From a virus: a stretch of 64,000 nt of DNA. Every line of letters begins with the position of its first letter. Positions within the stretch are counted from its first letter, which is position 1. A program made the translations under genes and the position numbers. This document shows positions 23,477 to 61,454 of this stretch, piece after piece. The notes under the pieces were generated by a model. It did no database searches and was not told the origin of the DNA. It was given only the letters and a program-made list of their open reading frames with translations. Location: positions 186,001 to 250,000 of the IMG/VR virus record IMGVR_UViG_3300046787_000408; one strand, written 5' to 3'.

Positions 23477-23787
23477 GATATTTACTGTTAACTTATTATA
23501 CCAAACCTGATGGAAAAATTGACGAGTCCATGGCTGTGAGCAAGCGGGTCAAGACCAGCGATTTACAAACAGCCAGCGTGATCTTGGACTTTAAAAAACT
23601 GCAAGTGGTCAAGGCCAGCATGGGCGGTACTACTGTACCACGTGACTGGGATCGAATTGTGAGTTATTATCATCAGCACTATGCATCAACAATCGAACGA
23701 TTGTTCAAAGAAAACGGCTACGAAATTGTCAAGCCCGAAACTGCAACGCAAGATACTGTTGCAGTAACATCTGATCAACCAGCTTGA
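23473..23787 (+). CDS. Small conserved protein after the clamp loader
   Basis: 104 residues, overlapping the ATPase gene at ATGA. MRYLLLTYYTKPDGKIDESM...TASVILDFKKLQVVKA resembles a small protein that follows the clamp-loader gene in many T4-like phages. It does not look like T4 gp62 (187 residues), so the small clamp-loader subunit is either elsewhere or replaced. Confidence 0.75.
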   Translation: MRYLLLTYYTKPDGKIDESMAVSKRVKTSDLQTASVILDFKKLQVVKASMGGTTVPRDWDRIVSYYHQHYASTIERLFKENGYEIVKPETATQDTVAVTSDQPA

Positions 23788-23816
23788 TCAATACTTTTAA
23801 AATATCAAGTAAACCC

Positions 23817-24704
23817 ATGATTAAAAAACTTCTATCCATCGCAGTGCTGCTAACATCGTTGGCAGCAAATGCACAAGAAAAAATCACAGTGCAATGGGCG
23901 TTTAGTCCAAGCTCTACCTCAGCAAACTCAGTGCGTGTTATATGCGATGAGTTGAACAAAATGCAAAACAAATATACATTTTTGTTTTCAAACAAACCAG
24001 GTGCTGGCGGAACTATTGCTGCCAATGCAGTAACTGCTAGCCCAGAAAATACCTTGGTTGCAATGAGTTCAAGTTTTATTGTTAGGCCTTACTTTGAAAA
24101 GACCGAACCCACACACAACTTGGACAATTTTGTGCCGGTACTGGTACAAGGTATTGGCAGTCCGTTGTCAATCGCTAGCGCCAAACACACCACAATGGCC
24201 GAAGTGTATGCCAACCCCAAACTCACTATTGGTGTAAGTGGAGTTGGTAGTATTGGACACTTGACTGCTAATGAAATCACAAATGTCAACAAAACAGCAA
24301 CTATTGCAAACTTCAAGAGCAATATTGAAGCTGCCACTGCGGTTGCAGGTGGTCATGTGGACATTTCTGTAACGTTTGCTTCAGATGTAGCACCGTTTGT
24401 GGAGTCTAATAAACTTGCTGTGCTGGGACGAACTGGTCCAGGGACTCAACTCAAACAGATTCCCGACGCAGAAAAACTAGCGGCAAACTATGCTATTTTT
24501 GCCAGTACTGCAATGAGTGCTGATAGGTTTAAAGAACTACATCAGTTGTTGGCCACAGTAAATGCCAGCCCAGCAGTGGTCAACAGTTATAAATCAGATC
24601 AATTGCATCCAGTGGCGCTTAACATTGATCAGTCTCGTGCCTGGTACACAAACGAACGTGCTTTTTGGAAAAAGCAGGTTGACAAGATTTCTAAAACAAA
24701 ATAA
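23817..24704 (+). CDS. TctC/Bug-type periplasmic binding protein 1
   Basis: 295 residues. The N-terminus MIKKLLSIAVLLTSLAANA|QEK is a clear Sec signal peptide with an AxA cleavage site. The mature part has the Bug fold markers NKPGAGGTIAAN, LTIGVSGVGSIGHL, GGHVDISVTFASDVAPFV and KLAVLGRTG. Bug proteins capture carboxylates for tripartite tricarboxylate transporters. No membrane TctAB genes are seen, so the product would have to work with the host permease or as a scavenger. It lies among replication genes, which is odd. Confidence 0.87.
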   Translation: MIKKLLSIAVLLTSLAANAQEKITVQWAFSPSSTSANSVRVICDELNKMQNKYTFLFSNKPGAGGTIAANAVTASPENTLVAMSSSFIVRPYFEKTEPTHNLDNFVPVLVQGIGSPLSIASAKHTTMAEVYANPKLTIGVSGVGSIGHLTANEITNVNKTATIANFKSNIEAATAVAGGHVDISVTFASDVAPFVESNKLAVLGRTGPGTQLKQIPDAEKLAANYAIFASTAMSADRFKELHQLLATVNASPAVVNSYKSDQLHPVALNIDQSRAWYTNERAFWKKQVDKISKTK

Positions 24705-26256: not shown

Positions 26257-26795
26257 TGTTTGAACATTTATTAGAAGGTCTGCAATACAAAGACCTAGAC
26301 GGCATGATGAAGAGCACCGTTCACATTGATGAATTTGCCAGCAAAATGGGCGATGATGATGACATCATTGTACTGAGCTTTTTTGTACGTGATCTACAAG
26401 CAGCCAAGGATCTTGTAAACTGGTTTGAAAAGGGCTATGACTTTGTGTTGGACGCTGATCGCTCACCAGGTGAAATCAAACCCAGTCGCTACTTGGTGTA
26501 TGTAGAGATTCGTCGTCGCTCAAGTGCGCCCGGAGCTGTACAAACATTGTTGGACGATCTTGGCACCTTGACAGAATTTGAACCCGGTGACTGGCAGATG
26601 CGTTACCAAGGTCGCACACAGCCCTGGAGCGAAGAAGCATTTGCCAAAGCAGTGCCCTTGACTCCCAATGCATACAGACAAGCCAATCAAGGCGAACTAA
26701 ACGAAATGCGAGCAGCAGCAGGCTTGGCACATCGTCCAGTACATGTACCTTCAGCAGAAGTACGTTCACTACAAAGTATGGCAGGCATCCGATGA
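26256..26795 (+). CDS. Conserved protein, possible capsid-associated
   Basis: 179 residues. The start MFEHLLEGLQYKDL contains LLE|G, compatible with the T4 prohead-protease rule (L/I-x-E before A, G or S), so the first seven residues might be trimmed. The core (IIVLSFFVRDLQAAKDLVNWFEKGYDF...PSRYLVYVEIRRR) is alpha/beta. It sits between a conserved T4-like gene and two genes with capsid-targeting N-termini, which favours a head role. The following gene overlaps at ATGA. Confidence 0.72.
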   Translation: MFEHLLEGLQYKDLDGMMKSTVHIDEFASKMGDDDDIIVLSFFVRDLQAAKDLVNWFEKGYDFVLDADRSPGEIKPSRYLVYVEIRRRSSAPGAVQTLLDDLGTLTEFEPGDWQMRYQGRTQPWSEEAFAKAVPLTPNAYRQANQGELNEMRAAAGLAHRPVHVPSAEVRSLQSMAGIR

Positions 26796-27928
26796 GAGCA
26801 AACCAATTTATATCCAATGATAGTGACGCAATGCGCAAACCAACTTCAGAGTCTGTGGCAGGACCTGAAAAGTGCTGGCCCGGATACCGCAAGGTAGGAA
26901 CACAACCTGGCACAGGTAAGAACGCTGGCAAGCGTGTGAACGACTGCGAAAAGATCAAAGAAGATGACGTGGCTGAAGGCATTCTTAATAAAATTGCCAA
27001 CAAAGTAATGGGTGCTGCTCCGGAACAACCAAAGTACAAAGTTGGCCAACGAGTCAAGTACGAAACAAGTCCGCAGCAACCTGATTGGGAAGATGGCGGC
27101 AGTGGCGTCGGCGTAATAACTTCTTACAAGAATGGTCACTATATGATTAACGGTAATCCAGTTAATCACTTTGAGATTAAAGGTGTGGTAGAGCAAGGCG
27201 TGGCGGAAGGCTGGGTTGATACTATCAAAAATATATTCAAGCGTAAACCAAAGGACAATCGAACCGTGTTTGACAGAGATCCAGAAGCAATGCGTGAATT
27301 TGAACGATCAGGTGGATACGAAGCCGGCTTAGATATCATGGGTTGGCAAATAGGTTGGTTTGCTGCCGAACACGCCCAAGGTGATACGATGCAACAAGCG
27401 TTTTCAAAGTTATATTACGGCGGCGGTAGCCCAATGCCGTTTGATAATCGTTCATTCAAGCTAGCATGGGTAGCATACAACAAACACCACGGTCCTCAAA
27501 TAGCAGAGCAAGGTGTGGCGGAAGGCAACTATGACAGAGATGACTACTACAATGCACGTCAAGGTAGAGAATACGGCAAAGACCTAACTGCCACAGGCTA
27601 TGGCGGTGATGGATCAAAAACTCGTCGAGATGACATCTTCAAAGGACAAAGCAAACGCTTGCCCGCAGATCCTTTTGCTCGTACCAGTGGTGCTGTGCCA
27701 AAAAGTGGTACAGGACGAATTCACAGCAATGCACTACCTGGCGAAATGGATGAAGCCAACGATCAAAAGATTGGTGGACGTTATGATGCTGACGACTTTG
27801 ATGACATGGTGTCAAGACTGAAAAAATTAGCGGGCGCAGGTCCCATGAAAACAGTATACGATCCTAACCGTCGCGTGTACCGCAACATGCCCACAGCACA
27901 ACAACCTGCACAACAGCCCAAAAAATGA
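26792..27928 (+). CDS. Capsid-targeted polyprotein with three VAE|G sites
   Basis: 378 residues. The N-terminus MRANQFISND is a variant of the MRAxEF[I/V]xE tag found on four other proteins here and similar to the T4 capsid-targeting peptide. Internal putative prohead-protease sites are VAE|G at residues 62/63, 139/140 and 244/245; the last two are QGVAEG encoded by a near-identical 21-nt repeat. Cutting would release pieces of about 62, 77, 105 and 134 residues: a Cys- and Lys-containing CWPGYRKVG peptide, an SH3-like piece (YKVGQRVKY...GVGVIT), a helical piece, and a tail. No enzyme motif is seen. Confidence 0.75.
   Translation: MRANQFISNDSDAMRKPTSESVAGPEKCWPGYRKVGTQPGTGKNAGKRVNDCEKIKEDDVAEGILNKIANKVMGAAPEQPKYKVGQRVKYETSPQQPDWEDGGSGVGVITSYKNGHYMINGNPVNHFEIKGVVEQGVAEGWVDTIKNIFKRKPKDNRTVFDRDPEAMREFERSGGYEAGLDIMGWQIGWFAAEHAQGDTMQQAFSKLYYGGGSPMPFDNRSFKLAWVAYNKHHGPQIAEQGVAEGNYDRDDYYNARQGREYGKDLTATGYGGDGSKTRRDDIFKGQSKRLPADPFARTSGAVPKSGTGRIHSNALPGEMDEANDQKIGGRYDADDFDDMVSRLKKLAGAGPMKTVYDPNRRVYRNMPTAQQPAQQPKK
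27191..27211 (+). repeat. GVAEG-coding 21-nt repeat, copy 1
   Basis: GAGCAAGGCGTGGCGGAAGGC, in frame, encoding EQGVAEG. One T-to-C difference from the most common form (copies 2 and 5). Confidence 0.85.
27506..27526 (+). repeat. GVAEG-coding 21-nt repeat, copy 2
   Basis: Encodes EQGVAEG in frame; base-for-base identical to copy 5 at 59964. Confidence 0.87.
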
Positions 27929-28212
27929 GAGCTAACGAATTCATTTCAGAAAAATGGAGCAAAAAGTACAAACGCTCCATTGACTGTTCACGACCACAAG
28001 GATTTAGCCAACGTGCGCATTGCCAGGGTCGTGCAAAAAATGAAGATGAACAACTGGATGAGTTGCAATTTCTAGGTTCTGAATGCACCAAGGACTGTTC
28101 AGGACACCGTGCAGGCTACGACTGGTCAGCACGTAAAGGCAACATTCAAGGCAACAGTCCTTATAGCCCAAGTTTCAATAAAGGCGCTAATCTCCGCGCT
28201 GCTGGGAAGTAA
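27925..28212 (+). CDS. Capsid-targeted small Cys-rich protein
   Basis: 95 residues, overlapping the polyprotein gene at ATGA. The tag MRANEFISE|K fits I-x-E cleavage, leaving a mature peptide with SIDCSRPQGFSQRAHCQGR and CTKDCSGHRAGYDWS. Both Cys motifs recur in small T4-like phage proteins I recognise by sequence but cannot name. The mature product would be basic, with five Cys in spaced groups, perhaps metal-binding. Ends in a terminator. Confidence 0.78.
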   Translation: MRANEFISEKWSKKYKRSIDCSRPQGFSQRAHCQGRAKNEDEQLDELQFLGSECTKDCSGHRAGYDWSARKGNIQGNSPYSPSFNKGANLRAAGK

Positions 28213-28997: not shown

Positions 28998-29960
28998 ATG
29001 AACATCAAAAAAATTATAGCCATACTAGCACTTGTACCAGGACTGTCACTAGCCTGGCAACCTACAAAACCTGTTACAGTGGTATTCCCCAACGGACCGG
29101 GTGCTGGCAACGAAATCTCATTCCGCATTGCAGCTGATATTGTAGAAAAGTCCACTGGTGTAGTGTTCAAGCCCGAGTATCGTCCAGGTGCTGATGGCAA
29201 CATTGCTATGAATCACTTTGTAACAGTACCGCGTGACGGGCATACCATTAGTGTACCTGCTTGCCAATCAAATTGGGTAACTCCTGAAATCTGGTATCCC
29301 AACATGATCAAGTACAGCCCTATGGATCTAGAACCTGTTGCTAACATTGCTCGTAGTCCTCTAGCGTTCTGGGCACACCCTAGCAGCCGGATCAATACGC
29401 CAGAAGAATTTGTGGCTGCTATTCGTAATCGGCAACGAATGACCGTGGCCATTGGCGGTGGCGGGCACAAACTGGCTGTAGAATATCTTGTGGATAAAGT
29501 AAGTGTAGCAGGCAGTGATAATCTGCAAACTGTTTCTTACAAAGGTCCTGCACAGGCTCTATTAGATGTCATGGGCGGACATGTAGAATTTGGGGTAACA
29601 CCTGTAGCAGTGGGCTATCCGCATGTGCAAACTGGCAAGCTCAAATTCATTGGTATAGCTGATACCCGCACTTTGCCCGGGCTTGAACACATTCCTTTGA
29701 TGAGCAAGGCTGCTCCAGGACTCAGCATACATGGCTGCTGGAACTTGGCCTTGCCGCCAGGCACCCCACAAGAGATTCAAACTTGGTATCGTGATCAGTT
29801 TGTACCAGCAATTCGTTCAGCTGAAGCTGCTGCCAAGTTCAAAGAAAACATGATGTATACTACTCCTGCTGAGCACAGTGCTGCAGGTGTTAGAGCCAGC
29901 ATGGCACGCCTGCAACAGACATGGCAACCAATTGCTCGCAGAATTGATCCTAACAAATGA
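28998..29960 (+). CDS. TctC/Bug-type periplasmic binding protein 2
   Basis: 320 residues. The signal peptide MNIKKIIAILALVPGLSLA precedes WQPTKPVTVVFPNGPGAGNE, the standard Bug opening. YRPGADGNIAMNHF, VAIGGGGHKLAVEYL, VMGGHVEFGVTPVAVG and KLKFIGIADTRTLPGLE complete the family pattern. Only moderately similar to the copy at 23.8 kb, so it is probably a separate acquisition or an old duplication. Shine-Dalgarno AAGGAG. No transporter membrane subunits nearby. Confidence 0.92.
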   Translation: MNIKKIIAILALVPGLSLAWQPTKPVTVVFPNGPGAGNEISFRIAADIVEKSTGVVFKPEYRPGADGNIAMNHFVTVPRDGHTISVPACQSNWVTPEIWYPNMIKYSPMDLEPVANIARSPLAFWAHPSSRINTPEEFVAAIRNRQRMTVAIGGGGHKLAVEYLVDKVSVAGSDNLQTVSYKGPAQALLDVMGGHVEFGVTPVAVGYPHVQTGKLKFIGIADTRTLPGLEHIPLMSKAAPGLSIHGCWNLALPPGTPQEIQTWYRDQFVPAIRSAEAAAKFKENMMYTTPAEHSAAGVRASMARLQQTWQPIARRIDPNK

Positions 29961-34596: not shown

Positions 34597-35106
34597 ATGG
34601 CAAAAAAAGAATTACCCCCAAGTAAAATTACCAAAACAGAAGAAGACTGGATGACAAAAAAATGGCGTCCCATGATGGCTATTATGTACATGACTGCCTG
34701 CTTGTTTGACTTTGTGTTCTTCCCAATCATGTTTACTGTGGTGCAGTTCTGGGAAGTGTCAGCTGCCAACGATGCATTCCGTCAGTGGGCACCAATCACA
34801 CTGCAAGGCGGTGGCTTGTTCCACGTGGCCATGGGTGCTGTGTTGGGCGTTAGCGCATGGAGTCGTGGACAAGAAAAAATGGCTGGTGTAACTGGCGGCG
34901 CTGCTGCTCCAACACCTGCAGTGGGAATGAGTCCAGCACAACCCACCAGCTTTGGTGCACCAGTTGCACAAACTGCGGCATATACATCAGCACCTAGTTG
35001 GGGATCGACTACAGTAGCCAGCAACAGCTGGGGCAGCGCACCGGTACAAACAGGTTGGGGCGGCAAAAAAGCTCCACCTGAAGCTGAGTTTCCGCTAGTT
35101 AGTTAA
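34597..35106 (+). CDS. Holin-like three-helix protein (GTA_holin_3TM type)
   Basis: 169 residues. KKWRPMMAIMYMTACLFDFV is the entry to the first of two to three membrane segments, followed by WAPITLQGGGLFHVAMGAVLGVSAW. This resembles the GTA_holin_3TM family. A Pro/Ala/Gly-rich cytoplasmic tail follows. Shine-Dalgarno AAAGGAA. Proximity to endolysin and spanin genes supports a holin role. Confidence 0.75.
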   Translation: MAKKELPPSKITKTEEDWMTKKWRPMMAIMYMTACLFDFVFFPIMFTVVQFWEVSAANDAFRQWAPITLQGGGLFHVAMGAVLGVSAWSRGQEKMAGVTGGAAAPTPAVGMSPAQPTSFGAPVAQTAAYTSAPSWGSTTVASNSWGSAPVQTGWGGKKAPPEAEFPLVS

Positions 35107-35121
35107 CAACAGGAACAACAG

Positions 35122-37212
35122 ATGACAATTTCAATTGGTGGTGGCATTACTATCGGCGGCGGTATCTCATTTGTTAGTGGTACCACACCAACGCCAACAC
35201 CACCAGGCTACTTTGATTATGTGACTGCTTTGTTGTCTGGTTCAGGAACTGACAACACTGACAACAATACATTTTTAGACTCTAGTACCAACAATTTTAC
35301 TGTAAAACGTAACGGCAATCCTACTCAAGGTTCATTTGGACCTTATGGCGGTGGTTGGAGCAACTATTTTGATGGCACCGGTGACTTTTTAACACTTTCA
35401 TCAGCTCCAGTTGCTGCCACTGGAACGTTTACGATTGAGTGTTGGGTATACGTCACTGGTACTGCGGTCGCACAAAGTATATACGGTCAATATCTTGGTA
35501 ACCCTAGCCCTGCTGCAGGTAGATGGAACATGTTATGGAATGATGCAGCTAATAAATTTAGTTTTAGCATTGCATCAACAAGTTACGAATCTACGTCTAC
35601 TTACTCAGCAAATACTTGGTATCACATAGCATGGGTTCGTGATGGATCAAACAATTTATCACTATATGTCAATGGTGTAAGAGATAGTACAAGGGCTAAT
35701 ATAACAGCGTCATTGTATACTGGTAATCCAATAATTGGTGCCAGAAGCGATGGTACAACCCCATACACAGGTTATATCTCAAATTTTAGAGTCACTAATA
35801 CAGTTGTTTACTCTGGTACAACTTACACTGTTCCGACTGGACCACTTACTGCTATTACTGGAACAACGCTATTAACTTGCCAAAGCAATCGTTTCATTGA
35901 TAACTCAACCAATAACTTTACTATCACACGTAGTGGTAATGTTGCAGTTGAAAAATTTAATCCTTTTGGAATAATCAACAACAGCGGTGTTCCAGAAGCG
36001 TACACACCAAGTGTGTATGGCGGCAGTGCGTACTTGGATGGCACAGGAGACTACCTAACAGTAGCAACCAATACTGCTCTTGACTTTGAAAATAGTGACT
36101 TCACTGCTGAGTGTTGGATATATCCAATATTATTCAACGCTTCGGGTGGCGGATTTATGGGGGTCGGTGCGCAGAGTGGAAGTGCGTCATGGATCTTGCG
36201 AGGAAACAGTTCAGGTACTTTGACTTTTTCAGCTTGGTACAGTCCTGGTGGTGGCGCTGACGTCACAACAATTACTAGCACAACTGGTGTTCTCCGATTT
36301 ACCGCCTGGAACCACGTGGCCGTTACTCGTCAAGGTACTTCATGGAACATATGGTGCAACGGAATATCAGTTGCATCTGGTACTCGAAGCACTGCTATTG
36401 CAAACACAGGCAGACCTGCACAAATTGGATATGACTATAGCAGCTCGACTGTTCGAACACAAAATGCGTATATTTCTGACGTAAGATGGGTCAAAGGCAC
36501 AGCGGTTTATACTTCGGCCTTTACACCGCCTACTGCACCGTTGACAGCAATCACAAATACATCGTTGCTGCTGAATGGAACCAACGCAGGCATATACGAT
36601 TCGACCACCATAAGCGATTATGAAACAGCGGGCAATGCAAAAATTTCCACAGCAGTCAGCAAGTGGGGCACAGGCAGTATGTATTTTGACGGGACAGGTG
36701 GTTACCTGTACTCTCCTAATCTCACGCTAAATGCCAACAAAGACTATACATTAGAATGCTGGGTGTATATAGCAGCGTTTGATGCTGTGCAACCCAGTGG
36801 TATTTTCTTTAGTGGCACTGGTTCTTCGGACCTTCAACGGGTACAACTATCGATAAATCCTGCTGGTTCTGTTTCTTTCACTATGCAAACCACTGCAGGC
36901 GTTTCAAACGGAGTCACAAGCGCAACTGGATTGATTACTGCAGGCAACTGGTACTATCTGACTGTTGTTCGTGACGGCAACCTGGTCACAGTGTACGTAA
37001 ATGGAACTAGTGTTGCAACTCTAACCGTTACGTTGTCGATCACAGTAGCTGATACCACTTACATAGGATTTGTAAGAAGCGGTGCCGCACTAAGATATCT
37101 CAACGGATACATCAACGATTTTAGAATCACCAACGGAGTTGCCCGTTACACTAGCAATTTTACTCCCCCAGACGCACCTTTACCGGCTATCCCCCCGGTT
37201 GAACCTGCTTAA
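35122..37212 (+). CDS. Tail protein with three LamG/ConA-like lectin domains
   Basis: 696 residues. A docking tag (SIGGGITIGGGISF) leads into three similar domains of about 200 residues, each with YFDGTGD-like start, FTIECWVY/FTAECWIY/YTLECWVY, a W-H-x-A-W/V-T-R strand, VNG, and GYI-x-x-R/D-(F/W)R-x-(T/V) near the end: concanavalin A/laminin-G beta-sandwich folds that bind sugars. The repeat structure suggests internal duplication. Probably a tail spike or fibre for polysaccharide attachment. Confidence 0.88.
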   Translation: MTISIGGGITIGGGISFVSGTTPTPTPPGYFDYVTALLSGSGTDNTDNNTFLDSSTNNFTVKRNGNPTQGSFGPYGGGWSNYFDGTGDFLTLSSAPVAATGTFTIECWVYVTGTAVAQSIYGQYLGNPSPAAGRWNMLWNDAANKFSFSIASTSYESTSTYSANTWYHIAWVRDGSNNLSLYVNGVRDSTRANITASLYTGNPIIGARSDGTTPYTGYISNFRVTNTVVYSGTTYTVPTGPLTAITGTTLLTCQSNRFIDNSTNNFTITRSGNVAVEKFNPFGIINNSGVPEAYTPSVYGGSAYLDGTGDYLTVATNTALDFENSDFTAECWIYPILFNASGGGFMGVGAQSGSASWILRGNSSGTLTFSAWYSPGGGADVTTITSTTGVLRFTAWNHVAVTRQGTSWNIWCNGISVASGTRSTAIANTGRPAQIGYDYSSSTVRTQNAYISDVRWVKGTAVYTSAFTPPTAPLTAITNTSLLLNGTNAGIYDSTTISDYETAGNAKISTAVSKWGTGSMYFDGTGGYLYSPNLTLNANKDYTLECWVYIAAFDAVQPSGIFFSGTGSSDLQRVQLSINPAGSVSFTMQTTAGVSNGVTSATGLITAGNWYYLTVVRDGNLVTVYVNGTSVATLTVTLSITVADTTYIGFVRSGAALRYLNGYINDFRITNGVARYTSNFTPPDAPLPAIPPVEPA

Positions 37213-42764: not shown

Positions 42765-43562
42765 ATGACCACAATTGTAATCATGCCTGGCGGCTTCCAT
42801 CCCTATCACGCAGGGCATCACGCCCTTTATCAAAGTGCGCAACGCACATTTCCTGATGCCGAAGTGTATGTTGCTGCAACCAACGATACCAGTTCAAGAC
42901 CTTTTCCGTTTGCTGTAAAAGAAAAACTAGCCCGATTAGCCGGAGTTGAAACTGGGCACTTTGTACAAGTAAGTTCGCCATTTCGTGCGGCCGAAATAAC
43001 CAGCAAGTACAATCCTGAAAAAGACGTCTTGATCTTTGTGCGCAGTGAAAAAGACGCCAACTCGCAACCACAACCTGGCGGAGTCAAAAAAGACGGGTCA
43101 CCTAGTTACCTACAACCTTTGTTGGGTGCTCGAAAGCTAGAGCCATTTGCCAAGCATGCTTACATGGCCTACTTGCCCACAGTAGAGTTTGGTCCAGGTA
43201 TGACGTCGGCCACACAGATTCGTAGTGCTTGGCCCAGTTTAGACGAACGCCGCAAAACAGCTCTTGTGATGAGCCTGTACCCCAAGACGCAAAGCAACAC
43301 CAAGTTAGCTGCCACAGTGGTCAAACTGTTGGACACAGCCATTGGCAGTGAGCATGGTGTGGCGGAAGGTGCTCCGATTGTGGTAGCACAGGCTCCTATC
43401 GATATTCGCAATCCTAAAAAGGCTCCACAGCCATATAGAAATCAGGGCGACATTGTTCCGCCAACAACCCCGCCAAGCACTGAGAAGCGTGGCGTTAAAG
43501 GTCGTCCTGGTCAAAGACCTATGCCTCAACACAACGAAAACAACGATTACCTAGATGAATGA
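42765..43562 (+). CDS. Nucleotidyltransferase with GVAE|G-linked tail
   Basis: 265 residues. MPGGFHPYHAGHHALYQSA is the HxGH-type ATP site of the nucleotidylyl transferase superfamily (NMN or cytidylyl transferases), and MTSATQIRSAWPS the second ATP-binding ISSTxIR motif. Substrate not certain: NMN adenylyltransferase would connect to nadE. Residues 199-202 are VAEG, a putative prohead-protease site after Glu201, followed by a 64-residue Pro-rich tail that would be split off. This suggests a capsid-associated enzyme. Confidence 0.82.
   Translation: MTTIVIMPGGFHPYHAGHHALYQSAQRTFPDAEVYVAATNDTSSRPFPFAVKEKLARLAGVETGHFVQVSSPFRAAEITSKYNPEKDVLIFVRSEKDANSQPQPGGVKKDGSPSYLQPLLGARKLEPFAKHAYMAYLPTVEFGPGMTSATQIRSAWPSLDERRKTALVMSLYPKTQSNTKLAATVVKLLDTAIGSEHGVAEGAPIVVAQAPIDIRNPKKAPQPYRNQGDIVPPTTPPSTEKRGVKGRPGQRPMPQHNENNDYLDE
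43350..43370 (+). repeat. GVAEG-coding 21-nt repeat, copy 3
   Basis: GAGCATGGTGTGGCGGAAGGT, in frame, encoding EHGVAEG; two differences from copies 2 and 5. Confidence 0.83.
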
Positions 43563-44691
43563 CGTGTACTGCCCTTTGATATTCAAAGGTATGTATTTGG
43601 AACGGCACAGTGCTGATACCAGTTTAGTTGCACCTTGTTGCGCTGCAACTGGAGAATTGGTCAACAACTCTCAGGTTAATTTTAACACTAATCCTTTTTT
43701 GTCAAGGCTTCGTAAAGAAAACCAAGACGGCATTGCCAGCAAAGAATGCAATGTGTGTTGGGATCAAGAGAAATATACTGGCCGTAGCCTTAGAACCAGT
43801 TCAGTTGAGTACTATGCTAATTTCAAAGATAGTCCGTTACAAACAACAGAATTAAAAAATCTAGACTGGAACGTAGAACCAATATGCAACGCCAAATGCG
43901 TTATATGCAGTAGTTACCACAGTAGCGCTTGGGCCGCTGAAGATCAAAAATTTATACCCGGTGCTGCTTTGCCTATACGAACAGCCTCACTAGCAAAAAG
44001 CAACAGTATTATTGATGCTGTGGATTTTTCAACTGTAAAAAGAGTTTATTTCAACGGTGGGGAACCAGTACTAAGTCAGGACCCTGAATTTATTTTACAA
44101 AAATTAGCAGATTCTGGAAACCTTGAAAACACTCAAATAGCATTCAACATGAACGGCAGTCGTATGCCTTCAAAGAATCTAATTGATTTGCTCAAGAGAG
44201 CAGAACATGTTACTGTGTTTTTGAGTATTGACGGCACCGATCAACAATTTGAATACATACGGTATCCTCTGAACTGGATCCAGGTCATGTCCAATATTGA
44301 TCAAATAATGCAAATGGGATTCGACGAGGTCTGCATGACCACTGCACTGGGTATTCATAATATTCATATTGCCCAGAGCACCGAAGATTGGTGGAATGAT
44401 TATACAAAAAGTTATCGTGATCAAATTGGTATAAACAATACGTATCAACTTGTGGTTGGGTTGCTTGGTATCAACTCAGCTAGTAGCACTCTTAAAGATC
44501 AACTGTTGATAGATTTTCAGGGACAGCCTGGGAGGGTCGCTGAGCTAGTAATCAATTGTTTGGAATCATGCACAGGTAGCAACCAATGGATTGATTGGTT
44601 AGATACGTTGGATCGTCGGAGAGCTTTGAGTTGGCGTCAAACTTTTCCTGAGCTATATCTAGCTGTGCAGCGAGAAGGGGCTGCAAAATAA
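43555..44691 (+). CDS. Radical SAM protein (twitch/SPASM type) 1
   Basis: 378 residues. CNAKCVIC (about residues 112-119) is the CX3CX2C cluster motif and VYFNGGEPVL the SAM-binding GGEP; FLSIDGTDQQFEYIR follows. N-terminal CPLIF...APCCAATGE and CNVCWDQEK look like auxiliary Cys motifs. Similar proteins occur in T4-like cyanophages, with unknown substrates, often near glycosyltransferases as here. It overlaps the nucleotidyltransferase gene by eight bases. Confidence 0.88.
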   Translation: MNDVYCPLIFKGMYLERHSADTSLVAPCCAATGELVNNSQVNFNTNPFLSRLRKENQDGIASKECNVCWDQEKYTGRSLRTSSVEYYANFKDSPLQTTELKNLDWNVEPICNAKCVICSSYHSSAWAAEDQKFIPGAALPIRTASLAKSNSIIDAVDFSTVKRVYFNGGEPVLSQDPEFILQKLADSGNLENTQIAFNMNGSRMPSKNLIDLLKRAEHVTVFLSIDGTDQQFEYIRYPLNWIQVMSNIDQIMQMGFDEVCMTTALGIHNIHIAQSTEDWWNDYTKSYRDQIGINNTYQLVVGLLGINSASSTLKDQLLIDFQGQPGRVAELVINCLESCTGSNQWIDWLDTLDRRRALSWRQTFPELYLAVQREGAAK

Positions 44692-45623: not shown

Positions 45624-48600
45624 ATGAATACCGCTGAGTTAGATTCCTATAGCCTTGACGATGCCGTCAAGTTCAACCAAGACTTGAACCCCCGCCTGTG
45701 GCACAAACAGCGCATGCGACCTGAGGTGCGTGAAAAGCTGTTGGAGATTGCAGCAGACTTCAAACAAAGCCTGGGACTGTCAGACCTTGAAGTCAAAGAC
45801 ATCACAGTATCAGGGTCCAACGCAGGTTTTACCTATACTCCACACTCAGACATTGATCTGCATCTTGTGGTAGACATTCCCCAAGCAGACACTAGCGATG
45901 TTTATCGTGAACTGTTTGACGCCAAGAAATACCAATACAACGCTGAACACAATATCACCATTGGTGGATATGATGTAGAGTTGTATGTGGAAAATGCCAA
46001 TCAACCACCAGTTAGTCAAGGTATGTACAGCCTTGTAAAAGATGACTGGATCAACATTCCCAAGCGTAGACGCAGCACTGTAAACGACGATGCTGTGCGC
46101 AGCAAGTATGGGGATCTCAAGCACAGAATACAAACTGCTGTAGACAGCAAAGATCACGAACAGATTTCTGCTATGGCAGCAAAGATCAAAAAAATGCGCC
46201 AAACTGGCCTGGCTCGCAGTGGTGAGATGGGTCCTGAGAATTTGGCTTACAAGATGCTCCGAGCACAAGGCTACATCAAGAAACTGTACGATGCTAGAAC
46301 TGCTGCTCGCGATCTTGAACTCAGTTTGACTGAGCGCAAGAAAAAGAAAAAGCGAGTTCGCTACGGTTTCTGGAGTCCAGGTTTTGCATTTGGAGACGGC
46401 GACAGCGGAGATGGCGGAGGCGGTGGTGAAAGTATTCAAGAAGTATCAGTTACCCCAGACGGTGTTAGTCCCAGTACCAAGATGTTTTTGGAACAAGATT
46501 CTGCCAAAGATGTTGATGTTCTAAAAAGTTTTGCACGTTACGTAAGCGGTGAGCTAGGCCTTGCTAAAATACCCAAGATTATTATCAAGCGCAAGCCTGA
46601 GTGGTCTGAACAAAATGGCAGCTTTGGACAGTATGTGCCTGAGCTCAATCAACTCACACTGAGTCTGCATGGTCGTCACATTGTGGATGTGTTGCGTACC
46701 TTGGCTCATGAGCTTACACATGCGCATCAACAACAGACCACAGGTATTCCTGACAACGGCGGCGATACCGGCAGTGAATTTGAAAACGAAGCCAATGCTC
46801 GTGCAGGCGAATTCATGCGTCATTTTGCTGATACCCACCCTGAATACTTTGATTCACGAACACTAGGCGAAAGCTCAGGCTACATTCCTACTGCTGCTGA
46901 AAAGAACGATCCACGTTTTGTAATGGCACTGAGTCCCGACGTTCAGCCAGGGGCAACTGGCAAGAATGCCAACCGCATGAGCTTGAAAACTGATGCACAG
47001 GGCCGTCCACAGCAGGCTCGTACAAACGGGCTAGTAGAATCCATGTCTCGAGAATTTGCCAAATTCCAATCAAAAGAAGAACCCTGGGACAGAGATAGCT
47101 ACGAGCCGCCAGGCCCAGAGTTTGAACCACAGATGCCAGCGGGCACAACTGAGATTGACGTAAAAGATCTTACAGACTGGTACAGACTTGGCATGGATAT
47201 CAGCGACATGGATGATGCCAAACCTGAAGATTACAATCAAGGTCCTCCAGATACTGTGGTAACATTTGCCAGCGACGAACTAGAACAGACCTATCTAAAA
47301 CAAATGAAGAGACTGGGGCTAAAGACAAAAGATCTAGATCCTGATGTCAAGGGTGGCGTGGACGTATCCGACCAGCATCAGCCCAAAGAAGACTTGTTGG
47401 AAATCAAAATGACCGGCAAAAACCTGCGAGCCGAAGCTGCCAAGACAGGCGCACAAGCTGGTATGGAATTTGAAATGATTGTGCCCAACACCGAAACCGA
47501 TGTTGAACCAGAATACGAACCTGACATGGATCAGGATCAACGTACTAGAAGTTTCAGTGACATTCGCGACTTCTTTCATGATGGTGACTACAATGGACGT
47601 AGACAAGTAGATAACCTGATGGATGAGTTAATTGGTGAGTACGAAGAATGGAAGCAGGAACAAACTGCTGAGCAATGGGATCGTGACGGTGTAGATTACA
47701 TGCGTGACTTTATTGAAGTCAATGAGTTGTTTGATCGCGACGAAGCCATGCTTCAAGCTAGAGCTGATGTTGTTGCAGCCAATCCTGACCTGCCGCCAGA
47801 GTCAGAAGACTTCACACAATTACTCACTGCCAGACTTGATGAACTACAAGAACAGTTTGTGCTAGAATCGTTTGAAGCTGGTGGCCGTATCTACAATGAC
47901 GCATTTGAAACATTTGCAGAAGAACAAAACGAAGAATACGACGAACGCAGTTTCTTGGATGACCGATATACCTACATGAGTGACATTCAAAGCAACTTTG
48001 ATATCAGCTGGCCCTATTACATTGACATCAACGATGGCCAAGGTGGAGATATGGACATTGATCAAGTGGCAGATGAGTTCAGTTCTTACATGGGCAAGCC
48101 TGTTAATGCCAGTCGCCAGTATCATGGTGGTCGTCGTGAAGCAGGAACTTATGTTGTGGAACCTGATGGTAGTCTAGAAGGCGACAATCCTGGCGATGGT
48201 GGCTTGGAATTTGTTAGCCCGCCCATGCCTATAGATGAAATGATTTCAGACTTGAACAAGGTCAAGTCCTGGGCAGACAAGACTGGTTGCTACACCAACG
48301 ACTCAACTGGCTTGCATATCAACATTTCGGTGCCCGACTATTCAATTGACAAGCTGGACTATGTTAAACTGGCCATACTCATGGGCGACGAATACATTCT
48401 GGACTTGTTTGGCCGCTCGGGCAACACCTATGCTAAATCAGCCATGGGCAAGATCAAATCAGCGCTGAAGCAAAAGCCTGAAGCCGCTGCACAAATCATG
48501 GACTTGATGAAACAAGGTCTGGACGGTGCTGCAACCAAGGCCATACACACAGGTATCACAGACAAGTATACTTCAATCAACACCAAGACTGGCTACATTG

Positions 48601-49814
48601 AATTCCGTAGCCCTGGTGGCGACTGGCTGGACAGCAACTTTGCCAATATTGAAAACACCCTGTTGCGTTTTACTGTGGCCCTGAGTGCTGCTATCAACCC
48701 CGAAGCGTACCGCAAAGAATACTTGACCAAGCTGTACAAGTTGTTGTCTGAAGGCATGGCGGACAAGAGTGACGTAAACGTTATTCAGTTGTTCTCCAAC
48801 TATTCGGCTGGCGAACTAGACAAACCTGCCTTGATACGTCAAGTGCGTCAAAAGCAATTGGCTCGCAATGTTGCCAAGGGCAAAACCACTGGACCAATGT
48901 GGTGGGATGTTTCTAGACCAGGATACATGAGCAGCATCGAAGTTGTTGCTAACAGCAAAGAAGAAGCCATTGATGTTGCATTACAGCCAGGCAATTATCC
49001 AGACTGGGCAAGTGCTAGAAATACATTACAAGCTAAACCATTACGTCCATACGAGGCACCCAAGACAAAAGCTGCTGAACCTGCTGCGGACAGTCAAGGC
49101 AACTGGGGACTCTGGATGGCTTACAACAATCGCTTTATTAGACAACCAGGACAGATAGACTATAACGTTATACGTAGATTCCCTAGCCAAGCGGCTGCAA
49201 TGGCGTTCTTGGAGAGAACACGAGAAGAAAATCCCAACATGCGAACAGACGTTGAAGTTCGCGAGATTCCTGCAGACTACCAGTTAATTAGTACACCTGC
49301 GGGCAGACCAGCTACACCGCCTGTTAACCGCAATACGCTAATGCCAACCGGCCCTGGACCTTGGGAAGTGTTTAGAATAAGCGATGGGTCAAGTGTAGCA
49401 GAATTGGGACAGACCAACCGTATGGGTGCTGAAGTAGAAGCTCGTAGAGTAATTGATCAACGTCGAGAAGCTCCAGAACTGTATGGTGTGCGAACCATTA
49501 GTACTCCAGTTCCTGGATCTACAGTAGATCTGCAACGTCAACGAGCAGCACAACAAAATGACCAAGCACAAGGTGGCATCGTTGATGTAGCTGGCGAACA
49601 GCCAACAGCACCACGCACATTAACTACTCCAGGACAAGCACAACAACAGTGGACCGGTGAGTGGTTGGTGCTAGATCCCAACGGTCGTGAATTACATAGA
49701 TTCAGTGGCATTGGCAATGTACAAGCTGATGCCAATAGACACGCTGTTAACTGGTTACGAGCACATCCTGGCGCCATGCAAGCAGGTGTTACAGTGGTTC
49801 CGGAGATGGCATAA
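45624..49814 (+). CDS. Giant multidomain protein: nucleotidyltransferase, HExxH protease, amidoligase-like
   Basis: 1396 residues. (1) A Pol-beta type nucleotidyltransferase: VSGSNAGFTYTPHSDIDLHL, about residues 55-150. (2) A basic linker KKKKKRVRYG near 240. (3) A zinc metallopeptidase-like region: VLRTLAHELTHAHQQ with HELTH at 362-366 and a downstream FENEANARAGEF. (4) A putative amidoligase: GMEFEMIVP at about 613, then LEFVSPPMP and TGLHINISVP, to about 1100. (5) Low-complexity Gln/Pro-rich C-terminal repeats. Candidate prohead-protease sites include LSE|G at 1043/1044 and LVE|S upstream. No Shine-Dalgarno. I infer a packaged polyprotein. Confidence 0.8.
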   Translation: MNTAELDSYSLDDAVKFNQDLNPRLWHKQRMRPEVREKLLEIAADFKQSLGLSDLEVKDITVSGSNAGFTYTPHSDIDLHLVVDIPQADTSDVYRELFDAKKYQYNAEHNITIGGYDVELYVENANQPPVSQGMYSLVKDDWINIPKRRRSTVNDDAVRSKYGDLKHRIQTAVDSKDHEQISAMAAKIKKMRQTGLARSGEMGPENLAYKMLRAQGYIKKLYDARTAARDLELSLTERKKKKKRVRYGFWSPGFAFGDGDSGDGGGGGESIQEVSVTPDGVSPSTKMFLEQDSAKDVDVLKSFARYVSGELGLAKIPKIIIKRKPEWSEQNGSFGQYVPELNQLTLSLHGRHIVDVLRTLAHELTHAHQQQTTGIPDNGGDTGSEFENEANARAGEFMRHFADTHPEYFDSRTLGESSGYIPTAAEKNDPRFVMALSPDVQPGATGKNANRMSLKTDAQGRPQQARTNGLVESMSREFAKFQSKEEPWDRDSYEPPGPEFEPQMPAGTTEIDVKDLTDWYRLGMDISDMDDAKPEDYNQGPPDTVVTFASDELEQTYLKQMKRLGLKTKDLDPDVKGGVDVSDQHQPKEDLLEIKMTGKNLRAEAAKTGAQAGMEFEMIVPNTETDVEPEYEPDMDQDQRTRSFSDIRDFFHDGDYNGRRQVDNLMDELIGEYEEWKQEQTAEQWDRDGVDYMRDFIEVNELFDRDEAMLQARADVVAANPDLPPESEDFTQLLTARLDELQEQFVLESFEAGGRIYNDAFETFAEEQNEEYDERSFLDDRYTYMSDIQSNFDISWPYYIDINDGQGGDMDIDQVADEFSSYMGKPVNASRQYHGGRREAGTYVVEPDGSLEGDNPGDGGLEFVSPPMPIDEMISDLNKVKSWADKTGCYTNDSTGLHINISVPDYSIDKLDYVKLAILMGDEYILDLFGRSGNTYAKSAMGKIKSALKQKPEAAAQIMDLMKQGLDGAATKAIHTGITDKYTSINTKTGYIEFRSPGGDWLDSNFANIENTLLRFTVALSAAINPEAYRKEYLTKLYKLLSEGMADKSDVNVIQLFSNYSAGELDKPALIRQVRQKQLARNVAKGKTTGPMWWDVSRPGYMSSIEVVANSKEEAIDVALQPGNYPDWASARNTLQAKPLRPYEAPKTKAAEPAADSQGNWGLWMAYNNRFIRQPGQIDYNVIRRFPSQAAAMAFLERTREENPNMRTDVEVREIPADYQLISTPAGRPATPPVNRNTLMPTGPGPWEVFRISDGSSVAELGQTNRMGAEVEARRVIDQRREAPELYGVRTISTPVPGSTVDLQRQRAAQQNDQAQGGIVDVAGEQPTAPRTLTTPGQAQQQWTGEWLVLDPNGRELHRFSGIGNVQADANRHAVNWLRAHPGAMQAGVTVVPEMA

Positions 49815-50623
49815 TGAGAGCACAAGAATTTGTAACAGAACTGTTCCAACCAGGCAAAGACTGGAAGTGGAGTTTTCAGGGCAGTGAAGAAGCAGTAGCA
49901 GTATTCCATGTAGGCGAAGTTCCATACATGTTTCATGCTTATGGCGCTGACGGTGAATGGGAAGCAGAGTTCAAACGACACGGTAGCAAACTGGATCGAT
50001 TGCAAAAATTTGGACTAACTGGTACTGGAAACTCAGCAGAAGTTATGAGCACAGTGGTTGACATTATGCGAGCGTTCCTGGAAAAGTACAAAGACAAGAT
50101 ACAAGTGTTGTCGTTCAGCGCCAAAGAAGATTCACGCCAGGGCCTATATGCTAGAATGGTCAAACGACTGTTACCTGACTGGACCATGAAACAATCTGGT
50201 GAGCACTTTGTTCTTGTGGCTCCCAGACAAGATGTTACAGAAACCTGGGGAATTGAAAAATACGCCATTCCCTTGCCCATTGGTGACTATCTTGATCATG
50301 ACGAACACGATTTTGCTCCCCCGGGCAATTACAAAGATGTCGGCATCCTGCACGACGAAGTGTTTGACTTGATTGATACTGGGGCAGAGCCAGACGTTGT
50401 GCCTGCTGACGCCAAACAGTTGCTGGCCACTCAAGACTGGCTGACCAATGCTGGTGGTGACGGACCGTTGTTTGACGAGTACCCGGACAAGCCTGTGGTA
50501 TATGAAAAAGCTGGTAAGTACTACATTCTCGACGGGCATCACAGAACCACACGAGCTTGGAAAATGGGCAGACCCATCTCAATATACCTGTTTAGGGACG
50601 AACAATTAAAGGAATTTACATGA
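49814..50623 (+). CDS. Capsid-targeted GNAT-like/ParB-like fusion protein
   Basis: 269 residues, starting on the last base of the giant gene. N-terminal tag MRAQEFVTE|L. Residues 30-140 resemble an acetyltransferase-like fold (VLSFSAKEDSRQGLYARMVKRLLPDW). A linker has VTE|T, another possible cut. The C-terminal domain contains YYILDGHHRTTRAWKMGRPI, the ParB/sulfiredoxin-fold motif GHHRxxAA-type found in ParB-like nucleases and kinases. Activity is not proven. Confidence 0.75.
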   Translation: MRAQEFVTELFQPGKDWKWSFQGSEEAVAVFHVGEVPYMFHAYGADGEWEAEFKRHGSKLDRLQKFGLTGTGNSAEVMSTVVDIMRAFLEKYKDKIQVLSFSAKEDSRQGLYARMVKRLLPDWTMKQSGEHFVLVAPRQDVTETWGIEKYAIPLPIGDYLDHDEHDFAPPGNYKDVGILHDEVFDLIDTGAEPDVVPADAKQLLATQDWLTNAGGDGPLFDEYPDKPVVYEKAGKYYILDGHHRTTRAWKMGRPISIYLFRDEQLKEFT

Positions 50624-51292: not shown

Positions 51293-51499
51293 ATGCGAGC
51301 AAGTGAATTTGTAACTGAAAACTTTGCTGATGGCAAAGTAAAGGGCAAAAGTAGGCCTGGACGTGTGAAACGTTCGGGCGCTAGCTGTTCAGGAAGTGTT
51401 ACAGATCTACGTGCAAGAGCCAAAAATGCATCAGGCGAAAAAGCCCGGATGTATCATTGGTGTGCAAACATGAAATCAGGTCGCAACAAAAATAAATAA
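51293..51499 (+). CDS. Capsid-targeted small basic protein
   Basis: 68 residues. Tag MRASEFVTE|N, then GKSRPGRVKRSGASCSGSVT and EKARMYHWCANMKSGRNKNK. The mature part is very basic, with two Cys, and resembles known small phage proteins ending in WCANMKSGR. Size, charge and tag recall T4 internal proteins that travel with the DNA. Confidence 0.78.
   Translation: MRASEFVTENFADGKVKGKSRPGRVKRSGASCSGSVTDLRARAKNASGEKARMYHWCANMKSGRNKNK
51493..51498 (+). promoter_or_regulatory. Late-type TAAATA promoter, leaderless spacing
   Basis: AATAAATAACACTATG overlaps the previous stop and leaves five bases to the ATG at 51504; no Shine-Dalgarno. Confidence 0.55.
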
Positions 51500-51503
51500 C
51501 ACT

Positions 51504-51704
51504 ATGCGAGCACAAGAATTTATTGCTGAATCGGTTGCCCCAGGGTTCAATGTGTACTCAGCTCGAGTACGAGTCAAGAATCCCATGTACAACACCAGCA
51601 TTGATGTGGCTGTGTTTGCAAAGAGCCCACAGATGGCTCGTGTATTGTTACAAGCTCAGTATGGCAAGGACAGTACAGTATCTGATGTGACCAAGATTGC
51701 TTGA
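51504..51704 (+). CDS. Capsid-targeted small protein, best T4-like tag
   Basis: 66 residues. MRAQEFIAE|S is the closest match in the window to the T4 capsid-targeting peptide MKTYQEFIAE, sharing QEFIAE. The mature part (NVYSARVRVKNPMYNTSIDV, then SPQMARVLLQAQYG) looks like a small alpha/beta domain of a type common in phages. Convergent and directly adjacent to the lipoprotein gene. Confidence 0.78.
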   Translation: MRAQEFIAESVAPGFNVYSARVRVKNPMYNTSIDVAVFAKSPQMARVLLQAQYGKDSTVSDVTKIA

Positions 51705-58101: not shown

Positions 58102-58294
58102 TATAATGGAAACCACAACTGCTGGTTCAGTAGCCACTGTGAGCATGCCTTTAGGCGGAGTGAAAACAAGAAATGGTGGATCAATGTTAACAGGTAAATA
58201 TGTAACGGATTCGGACCCAACTCCAAATACGCCTAAAGAATACAAGAGGAATAAAAATGTTAGCGGACGCTTTAAAAACACTCCTGGCAACTGA
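58088..58294 (+). CDS. Small protein with cleavable-type N-terminus
   Basis: 68 residues (or 66 from the Met at residue 3). MRDIMETTTAGSVATVSMPL resembles the start of small T4-like phage proteins with a short N-terminal tag; IME|T fits I-x-E cleavage. The rest is basic and Asn/Lys-rich (TPKEYKRNKNVSGRFKN). It overlaps both neighbours, the Dps gene by 38 bases in another frame. Confidence 0.65.
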   Translation: MKMRDIMETTTAGSVATVSMPLGGVKTRNGGSMLTGKYVTDSDPTPNTPKEYKRNKNVSGRFKNTPGN

Positions 58295-59426: not shown

Positions 59427-61454
59427 ATGTTTGTAGATGACCTCTTTGACCAAAAAACACTAACTGAAGCCCAAGGCGGCGGCAGTCCTTGGCACTCAGA
59501 ACCTGAGCAACAGACCATTGACGCTACTCGTCAGGCACGGTTGAATCGCGAGCGTGAACCTGCTGGCAGTGATGCTATTGATGCTAGACTACGAGCACAA
59601 AATGATCAGTTGGCACAGTATGCACAAACAGGCAACTTTTGGATCAAGCGCAAAGACACACAAGAACACATTAGTGATGCCATGGTAGGCAAGGCTGCTG
59701 CTGTGGCTGCTGCACAGGACATGTTGAAACAACAACCTGACTTGCGTGGCAACATTGTGATCACAGCATATGGTCCGGGTGAAACTCAAGGTGTGGCGGA
59801 AGGCGCCGGGATACCAACCGATTGGATGGGAGTCCCTACTAGATTGTCCAAGAACGACAAGAAGCCAATCAAGAGACCATCCGGGTATGATGAATATATC
59901 AAGCGCGGCGCCAAACAAGGATTCCAAGATGATCCTACTAATCCTTTGCGTAAAAAAGTCAAAGAGCAAGGTGTGGCGGAAGGCATGATGGATAATCCTG
60001 GTGAACAAGACTCGCCAGTAGCACAAGCTATCATTCGCAGAATTCTAATGCAGCGTACAGACCTGTTGGCCAAACACGGCCCAGAAAAAGTTGGACAGGC
60101 AGTAGACGAAGTTGCTGACTTTGTGGGCGATGTAGATGAAATTGGATCTAGCGATGTGTCAGGTTGGGTTCGTCATGTTGAGCAAATGCTGGGCAACATG
60201 GGCGAAGGTCTAGCAGAAGGCCAATTAGACGAACTTAGTTTCAAAGACATTCAAAAAAGCGCCAATAAGTTTGCCAAGGGCGCAAACAAGTTTACAAAAA
60301 ACGTAGCAGACACCGGTGCTGCCGTAGGCAATGCAGCTGGAGCATTAGGTGGTGCAATCAAACAAGTAGGCAAAACAGCTATTGCTGATCCAGTAGCTGC
60401 AACATACAATGCTACCAAGTCAGGCCTAGGTAAAGCATCCAATGTTGCTGCCAACACATACGGTGACCTAAAAAAAGGTGTACAAGCTGTTGGCAAAGCT
60501 GGGCAAACCGTTGGCACAGATATTGGAGCAGCAGGCACAGCCGTTGGTAAAGGCATACAAAGTGTAGGTCGTGGAGTTGCCAATGTTGCAGGCGGTACTG
60601 CTGGAGCATTAGGATCAGTTGCTGGTGGTGCTACTACTGGACTTGGTCGTGCAGCAGCTCGCGGATTCAATACCGGAGTACAAAATGTAGGCGGCGATGC
60701 CATTGACAAAATGCAAACCAACATAATGACTCCCAAAGCTGCTGACATACAGAAACAAATTGCTACCAAGCAAGATGAAATCAAAGCTTTGCAAGCAACA
60801 CTGGCTGGTGAACAATCTGCTGCTGCAACGGAACCCAAAGCTGGTATACAAACTGGTGCCACTGCATTAATTGATCCTGACACTAAGCGGCCTTACGAAA
60901 AAGACAAGCTGGCATCCATGTACGGATACAAAGAACCTGAAGCAGCCGATGCTGATAAAACTCCAGCAGCACCTGCTGCTCAGCCGCAAGGATTTAGTGC
61001 AGCCAATGTGATGAATTTGCCAGGCATGGCAAAGACTGCTGCTAAACCAGCAGCGCCTGCTAAAACAGCCAACTTTGCTGGCCCTGGCGGATACGGAGCA
61101 ACTACAACTGGCATCAAGGCTCCGGCTGCACCTAGCTCACCAGCGCTGGCAGCTCCTAAACTACCTGGTGCGCCTCGAGTTACTGCTGGTGGACCAACGC
61201 CAGCTGAAAAAGCCAATCTTGACAAGCGTATAGCAGCGGCAGCTCCGGCTGTGGCTGAAGCTTTGGCACAAGTTGAACGCATGTTGGAAAGTGTCAACAG
61301 CAAGAAAAGTGCGGAAATGGTCAAGGCTTATGTGGATCAGAGGTTTACAGAACTAGGCCTACGCAACACTACTGAATGCCGTAGCATCATGGCACGTGTG
61401 GTACAAGAATCAGCTATTCGTCGCAGACAATATGCGAAGAGTCTAGCAAAATAA
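59427..61454 (+). CDS. Capsid-targeted amphipathic polyprotein
   Basis: 675 residues. The N-terminus FDQKTLTE|AQG has a possible first cut. VAE|G sites follow at 125/126 and 185/186 (both from the 21-nt repeat), and LAE|G at 264/265. Residues 270-430 are Ala/Gly/Val/Lys-rich with an amphipathic, near 11-residue rhythm (AVGKGIQSVGRGVANVAGG), similar to LEA or apolipoprotein-like helices that lie on membranes. The C-terminal part is Ala/Pro-rich and ends in a helical domain. Possibly an ejected membrane-active protein. Confidence 0.75.
   Translation: MFVDDLFDQKTLTEAQGGGSPWHSEPEQQTIDATRQARLNREREPAGSDAIDARLRAQNDQLAQYAQTGNFWIKRKDTQEHISDAMVGKAAAVAAAQDMLKQQPDLRGNIVITAYGPGETQGVAEGAGIPTDWMGVPTRLSKNDKKPIKRPSGYDEYIKRGAKQGFQDDPTNPLRKKVKEQGVAEGMMDNPGEQDSPVAQAIIRRILMQRTDLLAKHGPEKVGQAVDEVADFVGDVDEIGSSDVSGWVRHVEQMLGNMGEGLAEGQLDELSFKDIQKSANKFAKGANKFTKNVADTGAAVGNAAGALGGAIKQVGKTAIADPVAATYNATKSGLGKASNVAANTYGDLKKGVQAVGKAGQTVGTDIGAAGTAVGKGIQSVGRGVANVAGGTAGALGSVAGGATTGLGRAAARGFNTGVQNVGGDAIDKMQTNIMTPKAADIQKQIATKQDEIKALQATLAGEQSAAATEPKAGIQTGATALIDPDTKRPYEKDKLASMYGYKEPEAADADKTPAAPAAQPQGFSAANVMNLPGMAKTAAKPAAPAKTANFAGPGGYGATTTGIKAPAAPSSPALAAPKLPGAPRVTAGGPTPAEKANLDKRIAAAAPAVAEALAQVERMLESVNSKKSAEMVKAYVDQRFTELGLRNTTECRSIMARVVQESAIRRRQYAKSLAK
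59784..59804 (+). repeat. GVAEG-coding 21-nt repeat, copy 4
   Basis: ACTCAAGGTGTGGCGGAAGGC, in frame, encoding TQGVAEG. The last 18 bases equal copies 2 and 5. Confidence 0.85.
59964..59984 (+). repeat. GVAEG-coding 21-nt repeat, copy 5
   Basis: Encodes EQGVAEG in frame; identical to copy 2, 32 kb away. Confidence 0.87.

Follow-up and report, generated by a model that had tools for sequence, protein, structure and literature searches.

The gene P0001 raises the question of whether one phage gene could supply several internal head peptides, and of what the recurring tetrapeptide within its product represents. In the window, by which we mean the whole 64,000-nucleotide stretch of DNA analyzed, P0001 is an uninterrupted reading frame of 378 codons, with VAE/G (the slash marks the predicted cut) at residues 62/63, 139/140 and 244/245; re-reading the sequence bore out the preliminary description, which had reported a frame of this length with these three sites. 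As far as sequence comparison goes, our main finding is that there is a dispersed, codon-fixed DNA repeat that marks the junctions of module shuffling across many phages.

Sites 2 and 3 of P0001 are exact matches to the 20-nt pattern GAGCAAGGYGTGGCGGAAGG. The repeat is (GAG)CAAGGYGTGGCGGAAGGC, written out in full as GAGCAAGG(C/T)GTGGCGGAAGGC, and it is read in frame as (E)QGVAEG; the linker itself is ~18 to 20 nt long (CAAGGTGTGGCGGAAGGC, encoding QGVAEG). The window holds 5 copies with at most 3 mismatches, four of them exact, compared with 0 in 100 shuffles. Since sites 2 and 3 are exact copies of a repeat that occurs five times in the window and never in its shuffles, the VAE/G sites go beyond chance. 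All five copies share one strand, are in frame and are distributed over three genes unrelated to one another (P0001, 42765-43562 and 59427-61454; Table 1). Outside the window, the 299,983-base contig of this T4-like jumbo phage contains zero additional copies at two mismatches. As a separate observation, GTGATGTTGCCAGT and 14-mers related to it are themselves repeated in this phage's genome (contig G000), where they occupy several contexts. The DNA of site 1 (GATGACGTGGCTGAAGGC) shows no close copy of the linker repeat, and among the tails of module-1 homologues, 20 of 46 distinct ones carry [VI]xE/[GAS], the P2 residue varying among D, E, S, A and T; by this comparison, site 1 is a protein-level site.

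Table 1. Modules, linker copies and capsid-targeting-like genes in the window, in window coordinates.
Feature	Coordinates	Strand	Basis or remark
P0001, 378-aa modular polyprotein ORF	26792..27928	+	ATGA overlap with the ORF on either side
P0001 N-terminus MRANQFISND, capsid-targeting-like, Asn replacing P1 Glu	26792..26821	+	resemblance
Module 1, VAGPEKCWPGYRKVGT...VNDCEKIKEDDVAE, terminates in site 1 (VAE/G)	26855..26977	+	homologues
Module 2, residues 63-139; weakly predicted beta-rich segment 87-132	26978..27208	+	homologues, model
Site 2 linker repeat copy, GAGCAAGGCGTGGCGGAAGGC = EQGVAEG	27191..27211	+	exact pattern match
Module 3, residues 140-244, predicted helical	27209..27523	+	homologues, model
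Site 3 linker repeat copy, GAGCAAGGTGTGGCGGAAGGC = EQGVAEG	27506..27526	+	exact pattern match
Module 4, residues 245-378, predicted mostly unstructured	27524..27925	+	homologues, model
95-aa ORF, start MRANEFISE, second capsid-targeting-like gene in tandem	27925..28212	+	
Nucleotidyltransferase-like protein, GVAEG linker (repeat 43350-43369) preceding C-terminal tail	42765..43562	+	
Capsid-targeting-like ORF MRAQEFVTE	49814..50623	+	
Capsid-targeting-like ORF MRASEFVTE	51293..51499	+	
Capsid-targeting-like ORF MRAQEFIAE/S, near T4 IPIII MKTYQEFIAE/A	51504..51704	+	
675-aa modular protein (MFVDDLFDQKTLTEA...), linker cores at 59784-59804 and 59964-59984 (both exact), derived GLAEG site	59427..61454	+	

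In IMG/VR, CAAGGYGTGGCGGAAGGC was found in at least 119 contig stretches with at least 152 copies, compared with 0 matches for a backwards control (the same letters reversed). Because a 23-nt extension of the motif is present in 6 of the 152 copies among the matches listed and occurs in 81 stretches, we estimate that IMG/VR holds ~2,000 exact linker copies, with a wide error. Among the matches listed, 151 of the 152 phage copies are in the QGVAEG frame, and 149 of the 152 viral copies have T at the variable (Y) position. Bacterial and archaeal genomes (257 Gb) gave 99 matches, mostly in unrelated genes, with 37 in the QGVAEG frame and T at the Y position in 26 of 99; these look like chance occurrences. 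In a collection of 50,697 phage records the motif likewise gave chance matches only, and tblastn and blastn searches of these records found no relative of P0001 or of the 675-aa protein. The motif is present in 17 of 19 long contigs and the backwards control in 0 of 19, although 14 of the 19 had themselves been found through the motif. Among 58 loci chosen by similarity to P0001, blind to the motif, the linker motif tops all 14-mers in the number of independent contexts in which it recurs. A search of the open literature for QGVAEG and GVAEG returned nothing relevant, and we found no paper describing the linker repeat.

At the motif-blind loci, the alanine of the GVAEG site is encoded by GCG in 21 of 25 cases (84%), compared with 8% in the same genes, and the valine by GTG in 17 of 25, compared with a background of 19%. 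In pairs of sites with one flanking module in common, that module has a mean DNA identity of ~57% (ungapped) and the unrelated flank is near 27%, while the linker is 76-100% identical at every position and 76-96% at wobble positions. Judged by these values, the linker is conserved as DNA, beyond what is conserved as protein alone, with a codon choice fixed against local usage. Something besides recombination, for instance a pause in translation at the rare GCG, could also account for the fixed codons. We also considered an internal translation start after the GGAAGG of the linker and rejected it, because an in-frame ATG follows within 12 nt at only 22 of 237 sites.

For the shuffling of modules, we used a continuity test on pairs of sites that share homology, at less than 90% identity, over the module on one side (left or right) as far as the linker, and scored the opposite side. 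Homology carries on past the linker in 4 of 247 comparisons, compared with 4047 of 7489 (54%) at control points within modules of the same proteins; this matched-point test supersedes full-length comparisons, in which HSP ends were enriched only ~threefold close to the motif. Every recurrent module family (two or more members) has two or more partners, both on the left (32/32) and on the right (33/33). Site 2 of P0001 has its left side in common with L240 only and its right side with L239 only (L-numbers denote loci from other phage contigs). L240 is 82-97% identical to the window before the linker and 30-54% after it; L239 is 17-30% identical over the stretch from 180 to 6 bases before the linker and 77-100% after it. 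The module that follows the second linker of the 675-aa protein has unrelated left partners in L007, L038, L247 and L295, and modules preceded by a QGVAE/G linker in one phage are preceded in another by a targeting sequence with IIE/G at its end. In these alignments the linker repeat shows itself to be a junction at which modules have been shuffled. Since the reading phase is shared by all joints, module exchange preserves the frame. Many linker proteins (L044, L078, L091 and others) contain a second recurring segment, AANPAQQAAIAIAKKK. It frequently sits where a module ends and could represent a further shared module or joint.

Parts of P0001 turn up individually in other phages. Homologues of module 1 stand directly after a capsid-targeting-like N-terminus (e.g., MKATEFIIE/G) in ~30-40 loci, and after QGVAE/G in L262; those of module 2 are found in L240, L241 and L242 with differing neighbors, and those of module 3 in L239 (87% identity) and L288-L292, while parts of module 4 have homologues in L239, L088, L111 and L077. 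Domain searches of P0001 against Pfam, PHROGs and PADLOC gave no match. An AlphaFold model built from a seven-row alignment has a mean pLDDT of 45.5 (low confidence), with values of ~70 in places within segments ~80-132 and ~160-235; sites 2 and 3 fall within low-confidence stretches, and module 4 (pLDDT ~30) looks unstructured. Comparison of this poor model with the PDB gave nothing at E <= 0.1, the top entries being Tudor and ribosomal-protein folds.

Cleavage at these sites would call for a suitable protease, which the preliminary description had expected outside the window; a gp21-type prohead protease gene was indeed located there (contig 34640-35272, with PF03420 at 34694-35149, E = 8.4e-25). 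The contig also encodes, outside the window, a gp23 capsid protein that is 65.6% identical to the capsid protein of PA5oct-like jumbo phages, and LLE/G is kept in the propeptide of 8 of 8 gp23s from related phages. Among the 19 long contigs, gp21 was found in 7; the other 12, without a match, are linear records and may be incomplete. In T4, gp21 cuts after L/I-X-E, and the first ten residues of IPIII suffice for packaging (PMC9026906). At P3 the linker has Val, a neighbor of L and I; the P3 residues given for T4 gp21 are L and I, not V. In 280 degenerate linker copies, the P1 Glu is kept in 270 and V, M, I or L stands at P3 in 278; these two positions are the most conserved, and Gln, Ala and the last Gly drift. 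We consider gp21 cleavage at VAE/G plausible on this pattern.

The N-terminus of P0001 (MRANQFISND) resembles the capsid-targeting sequence of T4 IPIII, MKTYQEFIAE (from NC_000866), but has Asn where the P1 Glu would be expected, so that the first cut may be lost in P0001. Seven ORFs of this phage, P0001 included, begin with M-R-A-x-[EQ]-F-[ILV], and the six others share the pattern M[RK]AxEF[IV]xE with the start of P0001. Across linker carriers in other contigs, capsid-targeting-like N-termini were found in 40 of 78, compared with 104 of 690 control ORFs (p = 4e-12). The regular expression used for scoring is loose, and the real contrast could be different. A recognizable targeting N-terminus is missing from about half of the carriers, among them the nucleotidyltransferase-like protein of the window. 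Taken together, gp21, the enrichment of targeting sequences, the conservation of Glu and P3, and the separate occurrence of P0001 segments elsewhere lend partial support to the initial idea of a polyprotein cut into four peptides, which nevertheless missed the dispersed repeat.

Most modules match no known family, as judged from searches with 56 relatives. The relatives with matches gave sigma-70 region 4, the SutA RNAP-binding domain, GNAT, a ParB-like nuclease, a transcription-inhibiting kinase family and a cytidylyltransferase, and a "virion structural protein" family was matched in five members. These families would fit an injected cargo for host takeover, for which the evidence is thin.

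Several other genes of the window deserve mention. A 1396-aa polyvalent-like protein (45624-49814) has a weak amidoligase match, and a 1775-aa protein of L118 that bears a QGVAEG linker has a similar N-terminus. A Dps/ferritin-like ORF (MLADALKTLLATEYAFVTKAQQFHWNVEG..., identified by eye) adjoins linker-bearing polyprotein genes in the window (58257-58697), in L239 (7483-7965) and in L240 (5977-6417), possibly as part of a conserved neighborhood. The phage also encodes two TctC-type (tripartite tricarboxylate transporter receptor) proteins (23784-24704 and 28998-29960; Pfam E = 1.5e-13 and 3.5e-21), as well as two radical-SAM-like ORFs of similar layout with CxxxC motifs, recognized by eye (43555-44691 and 62431-63519).

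The explanation that we consider best, with a probability of roughly 0.6, is that these genes encode cargo polyproteins that are targeted to the head and cleavable by protease, and that a fixed linker with a dual role is the point at which their modules are exchanged. The alternative to be weighed most carefully is that the linker is only a flexible spacer between domains and a recombination joint, within intact, shuffled proteins of the polyvalent type, the likeness of VAE/G to a gp21 site being coincidental. The carriers that lack a capsid-targeting-like N-terminus, and the V rather than L or I at P3, would fit such a spacer, and phage polyvalent proteins are known as intact multidomain cargo (PMC5512222). 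A pure spacer would, however, need neither the P1 Glu nor the aliphatic P3 that are retained in degenerate copies while other positions drift; the end of module 1 retains [VI]xE/[GAS] with a variable P2 and different DNA, and modules of one and the same kind stand after either a targeting sequence ending in IIE/G or the linker. We therefore regard a mere spacer as unlikely. It is improbable, on the other hand, that selection for a protease site explains everything, with QGVAEG a preferred gp21 site kept by selection on the protein and its DNA identity a by-product of recent spread: the most conserved residues do fit gp21, but the codons oppose local usage (GCG 84% versus 8%) and stay fixed where flanking modules are at ~57% DNA identity, and site 1 and derived sites spell VxE/G without the DNA sequence of the linker.

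The fixed sequence, its single orientation relative to the gene and the exchange exactly at its edges could also mean that a site-specific recombinase or a homing endonuclease recognizes the linker and moves the modules as cassettes. The site is short and without evident symmetry, it is always in frame within a coding sequence, and neither free sites nor the ends of standalone cassettes turned up. These points count weakly against this reading, which we consider highly improbable. It is hardly credible that metagenome assemblies simply fused unrelated genes at a short repeat. The carriers do all come from metagenome assemblies, with no isolate among them, but the repeat itself would remain to be explained, it is nearly always in frame, and near-identical contigs of one phage retain both sides of the joint. 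Moreover, the modules common to one-sided pairs span 30% to 100% identity, from which it follows that most joints are old.

The head-targeted cargo polyproteins that we propose have parallels in known systems. The T4 proteins IPI, IPII, IPIII and Alt share with them an M[KR]xxxEF[IV]xE-like N-terminal targeting sequence, a gp21-type protease in the genome, a site of the (L/I/V)xE type and small, variable cargo; the T4 IPs are, however, single proteins with one cut near the N-terminus, whereas here a single gene encodes several modules, each separated from the next by a site that takes the form of a fixed DNA repeat. In phage tail-fibre adhesins, conserved short motifs are thought to be exchange points. 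The ejection cargo of phiKZ- and SPN3US-type giant phages generally consists of separate gene products, unlike the repeat-joined, shuffled modules described here. That cargo is reported to be packaged in the head and processed by a prohead protease (PMC5694885, PMC10052503), as we propose for the linker proteins. T4 gp21 also cuts the scaffold and core proteins gp22, gp67 and gp68 at several sites into fragments (PMC9026906), but these are conserved assembly proteins, whereas the linker proteins are variable and shuffled.

Polyvalent proteins (Iyer, Burroughs, Aravind 2017; PMC5512222) are likewise multidomain proteins of variable order, some with effector-like or ParB-like modules, and like the modular linker proteins they likely enter the host with the DNA. 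Several domains and a variable architecture are found here as well (32 left and 33 right families, each with several partners); searches of P0001 gave none of the characteristic polyvalent domains (MPTase, ART, PBECR, ParB-like and others), and the 56 relatives, most without a match, include ParB-like, GNAT, sigma-70 region 4 and SutA RBD ones. In the sections of that paper considered here, processing of polyvalent proteins is tied to internal metallopeptidase domains, and we did not find a fixed DNA linker or a gp21 site described at every junction (PMC5512222). A survey of phage protein mosaicism (Smug et al. 2023, PMC10684548) similarly describes ongoing exchange of fragments between phage genes, and no shared linker is reported in the parts of it that bear on this comparison; here, unlike in that survey, one identical sequence, which spells a likely protease site, joins modules from dozens of unrelated families across many different genes.

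Under the cargo-polyprotein explanation, P0001 would be a member of a large pool of modular phage proteins, which a T4-like N-terminal capsid-targeting sequence would carry into the prohead. As protein, the linker would be an (L/I/V)xE cleavage site for the phage's gp21 prohead protease, and we infer that cutting at the linkers would set the modules free as individual internal peptides to be injected, each with a function of its own. As DNA, the linker would offer every junction an identical sequence read in an identical phase, and recombination between linker copies could then swap whole modules without breaking the frame while keeping the linker uniform; homology at the linker would then drive the exchange. 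That one 18-nt sequence provides both the homology for in-frame module swaps and the protease site that separates the modules in the capsid is a more tentative proposal, to which we give somewhat less than an even chance. If true, such a dual-coded linker would give phages a counterpart to phase-matched exon shuffling, and any module that gained the linker would automatically be delivered and released as injected cargo.

If our explanation is right, uncultured giant phages would hold a standing system to build, exchange and deliver injected cargo proteins, readable from a single tag. This tag allows thousands of candidate injected modules to be listed, most of them without a known family, and marks module boundaries in proteins that domain databases miss. 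It would also bring two questions within reach of experiment: by what means phages vary their injected proteins at such speed, and whether prohead proteases, beyond trimming polyproteins, turn them into functional peptides.
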